This document shows positions 61,575 to 62,526 of a stretch of 64,000 nucleotides of DNA, piece by piece. A program made the translations under genes and the position numbers. The notes beneath the pieces are model-generated. The model saw only the letters and a list, made by a program, of their open reading frames with translations. It was not told the origin of the DNA and did no database searches. This DNA is from Raineyella sp. LH-20 (GTDB taxonomy: Bacteria; Actinomycetota; Actinomycetes; Propionibacteriales; Propionibacteriaceae): contig NZ_CP137003.1 in the NCBI RefSeq assembly GCF_033110965.1, positions 1,922,001-1,986,000 on the forward strand. Reading direction: 5' to 3'. Numbering within the stretch: position 1 is the stretch's first letter; each line of letters opens with the position of its first letter.

Positions 61575-62112
61575 TGGAACAGACCTCTCAGGTGTGGGGC
61601 ACTGGGTGCGGACGGCCGAGAGATCCCGACGGGTGCTGCACCGGCATGGTGCCCGGTGCGACCGCAGATCATGCTGCTGTCGTCCGTCGGGGCCTCTTCG
61701 CCGTCGGTACGCAAAAGTCTTCCAAGGCGTTGTTACGGTCACGAAAAGGAATGTTTCCGTCGTGTTGAAAAATTCCCTACCGGTCAGCCGTTTGCCAGTT
61801 CACAGAATTATCAAAGGGAGTCGCCGCGGGGCCTCTGTGAGGAATTCGCGTCACTCGCACGGGTTTCCTCCGACGGACGACAAAGACAGCGTTCCACCTT
61901 GTCATATTGGCTTTCGAGGCGAGCTGTCCGCGATCCGACGATTTTCAACGAGATATTGTGGGGCGCAGTCGACCAAGCACCCCAAGAAGTGCTTTTCCGG
62001 AGTGTACTACGCGACGTCATACTACAACAAGTGTGAGCCTTGTCACCTGATTTGTACACATCCTGTTAAGCGTTCGATCGAACTCTTTTTCGTACGCGAA
62101 TCAGTGGCTTTC
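61575..62112. promoter_or_regulatory. 538-bp divergent nif control region, low G+C
   Basis: Clearly less G+C-rich than the genome (by eye about half). It has a GlnR-like half-site pair and a small dyad (AAGCAC-N8-GTGCTT, 61975-61994, followed by TTTT). A 126-residue frame (61656-62036) runs through it but has unlikely composition. No sigma-54 promoter is seen; actinobacteria lack sigma-54. The nifH and Mop-protein promoters should lie here. Confidence 0.6.
61732..61747. promoter_or_regulatory. candidate GlnR half-site pair upstream of nifH
   Basis: GTTAC (61732-61736), six bases, GAAAA (61743-61747) matches GTnAC-n6-GaAAC with one mismatch, about 160 bp before the nifH start. Only one pair is present, so the call is weak. 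Confidence 0.3.
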
Positions 62113-62526
62113 ATGGATGATATGACGCAGTTACGGATTCGGGACGCCGCGACCTTCCTCGGCGTGAGTGACGACACGGTGCGGCGCTGGCTCGAGGGTG
62201 GGGTGCTGGTCGCCGATACCGACGCCGGCGGACGCAAGGTGATCGACGGACGGGTGCTGGCAGAGTTCGCCCGCTCCCGCGCCGCCCCGGTGCCGGACCC
62301 CGCCCCGGTCGGACGGTCGGCGCGCAACCGGTTCGTCGGACTGGTCACCGCGGTGACCTCCGACCCGGTGATGTCCCAGGTGGAGCTCCAGTGCGGCCCG
62401 CACCGGGTGGTGTCGCTGATGAGCACCGAGGCGGTCCGCGAGCTCGGGCTGGCACCGGGGGCGGTGGCGGTGGCGGTGGTGAAGGCCACCCAGGTGATCG
62501 TCGAGACCTCCGCCGCGCTGCCGTGA
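62113..62526 (+). CDS. helix-turn-helix protein with molybdate-binding (Mop/TOBE) domain
   Basis: A 137-residue two-domain protein: residues about 5-60 are a MerR/excisionase-like helix-turn-helix (LRIRDAATFLGVSDDTVRRW), and residues about 70-137 a single Mop domain (RNRFVGLVTAVTSDPVMSQV...STEAVRELGLAPG). Mop domains bind molybdate. In other actinobacteria such proteins often accompany modABC. Here it is divergent from nifH across the nif control region and is the natural candidate for molybdenum sensing of the nif operon. The start may be ATG 62113 or ATG 62122. Confidence 0.8.
   Translation: MDDMTQLRIRDAATFLGVSDDTVRRWLEGGVLVADTDAGGRKVIDGRVLAEFARSRAAPVPDPAPVGRSARNRFVGLVTAVTSDPVMSQVELQCGPHRVVSLMSTEAVRELGLAPGAVAVAVVKATQVIVETSAALP

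Follow-up and report, generated by a model that had tools for sequence, protein, structure and literature searches.

The modABC repressor ModE of Escherichia coli and Azotobacter is a one-component regulator in which a helix-turn-helix (HTH) is joined to a Mop sensor, and the protein analysed here, referred to as HTH-Mop (HTHMOP in gene orders), is built on the same principle. In ModE, however, the HTH is of another kind and there are two Mop domains (PMC11980592), whereas HTH-Mop combines one Mop domain with an HTH_17/BldC-like domain and has another predicted operator. The 'ModE-like' and 'TaoR-like' TOBE proteins of gut bacteria have been proposed to regulate Mo/W genes (PMC11980592). The single-Mop 'ModE-like' proteins and the HTH_17 'TaoR-like' proteins consist, as HTH-Mop does, of an HTH plus TOBE. 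The TaoR-like proteins have the HTH_17 type in common with HTH-Mop (PMC11980592) but carry a periplasmic-binding-like domain, and the single-Mop 'ModE-like' set has been described with HTH_9, not with the HTH_17 of HTH-Mop (PMC11980592).

Each half of HTH-Mop also has relatives of its own. The molybdate/tungstate storage proteins MopII, ModG and Tub share the Mop fold and its motifs but have no DNA-binding domain. BldC and the MerR-type winged helix-turn-helix proteins share the fold of the DNA-binding domain, but BldC is devoid of a sensor domain and the MerR regulators use other sensor parts in the place of Mop. In the part of the literature on TunR, TOBE-HTH proteins and actinobacterial molybdate regulons that was covered by our searches, no experimental characterisation of an actinobacterial HTH_17-Mop protein was found.

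Domain structure of the HTH-Mop protein

The features of the locus are collected in Table 1, with coordinates given in the window, i.e. the whole stretch of 64,000 nucleotides analysed. The sequence-only reading of this DNA had described a 137-aa protein pairing an HTH with a single Mop domain. The open reading frame and both domains are real, but the translation start is likely at 62122 and not at 62113, since the orthologues begin M-T/A-K/Q-L-R-I, which shortens the protein to 134 aa.

Table 1 Features of the nif/HTH-Mop locus (window coordinates)
Feature	Position	Strand	Remarks
nif island, absent from three same-genus genomes	48690..62545	.	borders approximate
nifV-like homocitrate synthase	48714..49859	-	under equivalog cut-off
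nifJ-type pyruvate:ferredoxin oxidoreductase	49864..53448	-	
nifB	53494..54780	-	NCBIfam model over cut-off
nifN	54791..56203	-	45-68% identity to nifN-position gene of relatives
nifE	56200..57597	-	NCBIfam model over cut-off
nifK	57600..58985	-	NCBIfam model over cut-off
nifD	59002..60726	-	NCBIfam model over cut-off
nifH	60750..61574	-	TIGR01287 454.8 bits
nifH/HTH-Mop intergenic region, no recognisable operator	61575..62121	.	547 bp
GTTACGGTCACGAAAA, candidate GlnR-type box, one mismatch	61732..61747	.	157 bp upstream of nifH, conserved position
HTH-Mop regulator gene, 134 aa	62122..62526	+	62113 if upstream ATG used
ACGCAGTTACGG, only recognisable copy of predicted family operator CCGCANNTGCGG	62125..62136	.	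+3 of gene, score 11.3
HTH_17 (BldC/MerR-like winged helix-turn-helix) domain	62131..62280	+	Pfam match, model
Single Mop/TOBE domain, SARN and VKAT motifs	62317..62502	+	Pfam match, model

The Pfam models matched residues 7-56 (HTH_17, 28.9 bits over a cut-off of 27) and 69-130 (TOBE/Mop, 48.7 bits over a cut-off of 22.3); the NCBIfam Mop model TIGR00638 gave 51.1 bits, under its curated cut-off of 55. Only HTH and TOBE were found in the 134-137 aa, with a single TOBE stretch instead of two tandem Mop domains and with no periplasmic-binding-like domain. The whole-protein ModE model NF007957 scored 16 bits, its cut-off being 369, and matched the Mop stretch alone. The earlier description of a ModE-like but structurally different regulator is thus borne out by the one Mop domain, the HTH_17/BldC-like domain and this low score.

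In the AlphaFold model of the protein (mean pLDDT 87) the fold of the Mop half corresponds to ModE (1o7l, the top match) and to ModG, Tub and MopII, the solved relatives of this half, and the HTH half to BldC, RacA and SoxR. The SARN and VKAT residues are conserved among HTH-Mop proteins, and molybdate is presumably bound by the protein of the window as well. HTH residues V15, S16, D18, T19, R21 and R22 are invariant in the family and unchanged in the window protein, as is the recognition helix in comparison with the orthologues, which suggests that the same DNA site is read. In the protein tree the window protein falls near the nif-linked set without a firm position, so we do not claim that the nif-linked copies all share one ancestor.

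The nif island

The genes of the island are arranged in the order nifV-J-B-N-E-K-D-H-HTHMOP over ~13.9 kb, with HTHMOP as the last gene, and the NifH and NifD models point to one molybdenum-type nif set in the genome. Three genomes of the same genus (G001-G003) have neither nif nor HTH-Mop genes; at the empty site groEL is directly followed by the gene for an M19 peptidase. Nucleotide identity between these genomes and the window ends at about 48636-48696 and returns at 62545-62570, which places the end of the HTH-Mop gene (62526) about 20-45 bp from the right border. Since the site is empty in all three, the nif genes and HTHMOP form one island by presence/absence, and we infer that it was gained rather than lost three times.

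The NifD protein is long (574 aa), with about 517 residues over a 466-position model, i.e. it contains an internal insertion that is common to several other actinobacterial NifD proteins.

Gene order in relatives

A NifK search through 391 genomes of the order gave ten further genomes with a match. Seven of the ten (G777, G546, G746, G548, G559, G694 and G499, all nif-positive Propionibacteriaceae) possess an HTH-Mop gene that is oriented divergently to nifH and has 72-77% identity to the window protein; as the arrangement has been kept in seven other genomes, the association is not accidental. The divergent HTHMOP is followed by modABC in five of them and, in the other two, by modAB, where the DNA examined ends. 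In Actinotalea sp. M2MS4P-6 all the genes lie on one strand in the order HTHMOP-modA-modB-modC-nifH-D-K-E-N-B-nifJ, and in nearly all mod-type loci examined, nif-less relatives included, HTHMOP heads modA-modB(-modC).

In the window the M19 peptidase gene stands behind HTH-Mop, in the place taken by modA in relatives, and HTH-Mop is not the first gene of a modABC operon. The absence of an adjacent modABC, unlike the usual context, had been pointed out correctly. Its use as a mark of a dedicated nif sensor is not supported, since modAB(C) follows HTHMOP in the seven genomes where it is divergent from nifH. The sequence-only reading itself had named, as speaking against its proposal, membership of this protein in another modABC operon combined with an unaffected nif; the first half of this is what the relatives display. 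The usual partner of HTHMOP is therefore modABC, and the lone copy of the window is the exception.

Two further genomes deviate from the common arrangement. Genome G019 has a nif cluster 73-87% identical to that of the window with no adjoining HTH-Mop gene, and HTHMOP-modABC is located elsewhere; in G690, which has HTHMOP-modAB, no nif gene was detected in the 20 kb examined, and a contig end truncates its nifH. G019, also of the Propionibacteriaceae, contains three nifH-bearing clusters (L112, L113 and L114), one of them close to that of the window; in one, NifD/NifK are just 32-35% identical and may belong to an alternative nitrogenase. In nif-linked relatives (L245 10476-10688, L251 12991-13215, both on the minus strand) a standalone ORF with a single Mop domain lies next to the mod genes and converges with modC; it is possibly a molybdate storage protein.

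Predicted operator of the HTH-Mop family

The upstream regions of HTHMOP genes share the palindrome CCGCA-NN-TGCGG (CCGCANNTGCGG). With at most one mismatch it occurs 31 times in the last 150 bp upstream, compared with 0.37 times in shuffles. The sites are arranged in tandem: 21 of the 22 pairs found by a matrix scan that included the first codons are 31-32 bp apart, and no pair at 30-33 bp appeared in 100 simulations. The matrix was built from the very loci it describes; the spacing was not an input. The tandem palindrome is the probable operator of the family, as judged from these patterns.

The commonest pair lies at -28 and +3 of HTHMOP, usually across the gene start. An extra pair occupies positions -141 and -109 in most nif-linked loci, at a distance of about 375-450 bp upstream of nifH; it scores 11.5-19.9 in five relatives. 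In Actinotalea a pair spaced by 33 bp (scores 16.7 and 12.6) is found about 280-315 bp before nifH; it sits behind modC, nifH being the next gene. No significant site before nifH was found in nine nif clusters whose genomes lack a near HTH-Mop relative (p 0.17-0.96). The nif-side pairs, that of Actinotalea included, and their absence from these nine clusters are the best, if indirect, evidence for an action of HTH-Mop on nifH in the relatives, where a link between molybdate and nif is likely and direct molybdate control of nifH plausible; in the divergent loci the pair could instead serve the mod operon. Strong upstream sites are missing also from some intact HTHMOP-modABC loci (e.g. L102 and L118) and from the HTHMOP locus L115, so the lack of a consensus site is no proof of lost control.

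The nifH/HTH-Mop intergenic region of the window genome

The HTH-Mop gene had been reported to face nifH across 538 bp of low-G+C DNA. The two genes are divergent, but with the orthologue-based start the gap measures 547 bp, and its G+C content, although low (55.4% against 70.5% for the window), is nothing special, the same gap having 56-61% in relatives. The best operator score within 61575-62121 was 0.6, as against 11.8-20.3 for known sites, and 84% of shuffles reached that value; such palindromes as occur there are short and do not resemble the family site. Weak matches in the gap, when aligned (MAFFT) with the sites of relatives, were out of register and are not claimed to be functional.

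A scan halted at the start codon had implied that every site was lost in the window genome; this was abandoned when extension into the gene gave ACGCAGTTACGG. It corresponds to the +3 position of the relatives' sites, and a score of 11.2 is reached by 5 of the 64,000 window positions. The site overlaps codons M-T-Q-L-R, which favour such a sequence, and the match may in part be a coding coincidence. One weak match, close to the HTH-Mop start, is separated from it by 29 bp instead of 31. Among the four operator positions known from relatives, the start-codon one alone is recognisable here.

These data bear on the proposal that HTH-Mop is a dedicated molybdate sensor with direct control over nifH through binding to 61575-62112, perhaps at an altered operator. 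Such a role would agree with the conserved divergent position, the purifying selection on the gene (see below), the nif-side pair in relatives and Actinotalea and the lack of rpoN, but the gap contains no recognisable operator despite the unchanged recognition helix, only palindromes of another kind. Altered DNA specificity is possible but not indicated, since the family-invariant HTH residues are unchanged. We regard this explanation as unlikely. What stands of the suggested coupling of molybdate to nif is the adjacency to nifH, conserved in seven genomes; the nif-side operator pair is not recognisable in 61575-62112, and direct molybdate control of nifH in the window genome is weakly supported.

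The gene could also be a decaying passenger that has lost its regulatory role and persists only through its nearness to nif, as the missing partner genes and the unrecognisable state of most operator positions might imply. The ORF is, however, intact and of full length, with high third-position G+C and a dN/dS of about 0.2 against orthologues, a value that indicates purifying selection and argues against a dead remnant while averaging also over the time that preceded the loss of modABC. The operator site at the start codon persists as well, and we likewise give this explanation little credence.

Other candidate control of the nif genes

The sequence-only reading was right in that sigma-54 is lacking: a genome search found no rpoN, which excludes the classical NifA/sigma-54 circuit. 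The sigma-54-activator model gave weak matches only (best E 6e-8), taken to be other AAA+ proteins.

The published GlnR boxes are GTnAC-n6-GTnAC and gTnAc-n6-GaAAc (PMC10704036). Among the seven divergent relatives, six show GTTAC-N6-GTAAC with no more than one mismatch 167-185 bp upstream of nifH; in the remaining one a related box is located at 169 bp. GTTACGGTCACGAAAA taken alone is not significant, 12% of shuffles matching by chance, and it is called a GlnR-type box because of its conserved position in relatives. This candidate box appears a likelier nif switch in the window genome than molybdate. In some relatives (L245-L259 intergenic regions) a second GlnR-type box (GCAACCGGATTGAAAC, reverse strand) is located before HTHMOP.

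HTH-Mop and modABC elsewhere in the genome

The modABC genes of the window genome (C1:1475746-1478651) lie about 507 kb away with no adjoining HTH-Mop gene and are orthologues of the modABC genes in the same-genus genomes, with 73-94% identity depending on the gene. Recruitment of HTH-Mop after arrival of the island, to control this distant operon, would fit a family that controls modABC and the fact that the window copy is the sole HTH-Mop gene of the genome, none of the four TOBE matches in the genome being a second candidate regulator. Yet the best site upstream of modA scores 7.0, a value reached in 16% of simulations, and the modABC operons of the same genus work without any HTH-Mop gene, which leaves this explanation improbable.

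Exact copies of CCGCANNTGCGG elsewhere in the genome numbered 18, compared with 38 for the reversed control. Most of the 15 remote copies inspected are in genes and the four intergenic ones come from a dispersed repeat; no credible remote HTH-Mop regulon emerged from these copies. The repeat, with CCGCAGATGCGGCCCCTTCTGCCAGCCGC...TTCAGTCAGCTGCGGCC, is intergenic and was seen in genome G000 (L277, L279, L282 and L283); it explains the four intergenic operator matches.

Proposed mechanism and conclusions

The favoured explanation, which we hold with fair confidence, is that HTH-Mop is a molybdate regulator of HTHMOP-modABC which came with the nif island, and that the window genome has lost the adjoining modABC and nearly all of the sites. 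The domains, the island, the conserved gene order and the operator pattern were computed directly; molybdate binding, oligomer state, sign of regulation and the effect of HTH-Mop on nif we infer.

The usual role of HTH-Mop would be the molybdate-responsive control of its own operon, HTHMOP-modABC. The single Mop domains would assemble into oligomers in the manner of MopII-type proteins, and molybdate in the Mop sites would fix the winged HTHs for binding to tandem CCGCA-NN-TGCGG palindromes, spaced by 31-32 bp (three DNA turns) across promoter and start codon. In molybdenum-replete cells HTH-Mop would thus be bound and molybdate uptake shut off. In nif-carrying relatives the mod operon is back to back with nifH, and through the second pair the same protein probably links the Mo level to nif. 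HTH-Mop would have entered the window genome as the last gene of the nif island; with modABC missing there, the lone copy would be what remains, at the edge of the island, of an HTHMOP-modABC operon, most likely a weak autoregulator or a protein acting on sites beyond recognition here, and nif would more likely be under nitrogen control via the GlnR-type site.

A wider version can be put forward tentatively, at somewhat short of even confidence. An HTH-Mop oligomer of diazotrophic Propionibacteriaceae and of Actinotalea would read molybdate and bind two tandem pairs, one at its own mod operon and one before nifH, so as to set Mo uptake and nitrogenase expression jointly without NifA/sigma-54; the window genome would have kept the protein and lost the transporter genes and the nif-side operator.

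Frankia apart, the searchable literature says very little on how diazotrophic Actinobacteria regulate nif. The predicted operator (CCGCA-NN-TGCGG in tandem, 31-32 bp) offers a concrete, testable target for a widespread and apparently uncharacterised kind of molybdate regulator. The conserved nif-mod module means that HTH-Mop may act on both sides, and the window genome would represent a natural deletion case, in which an HTH-Mop regulator is found without its transporter.
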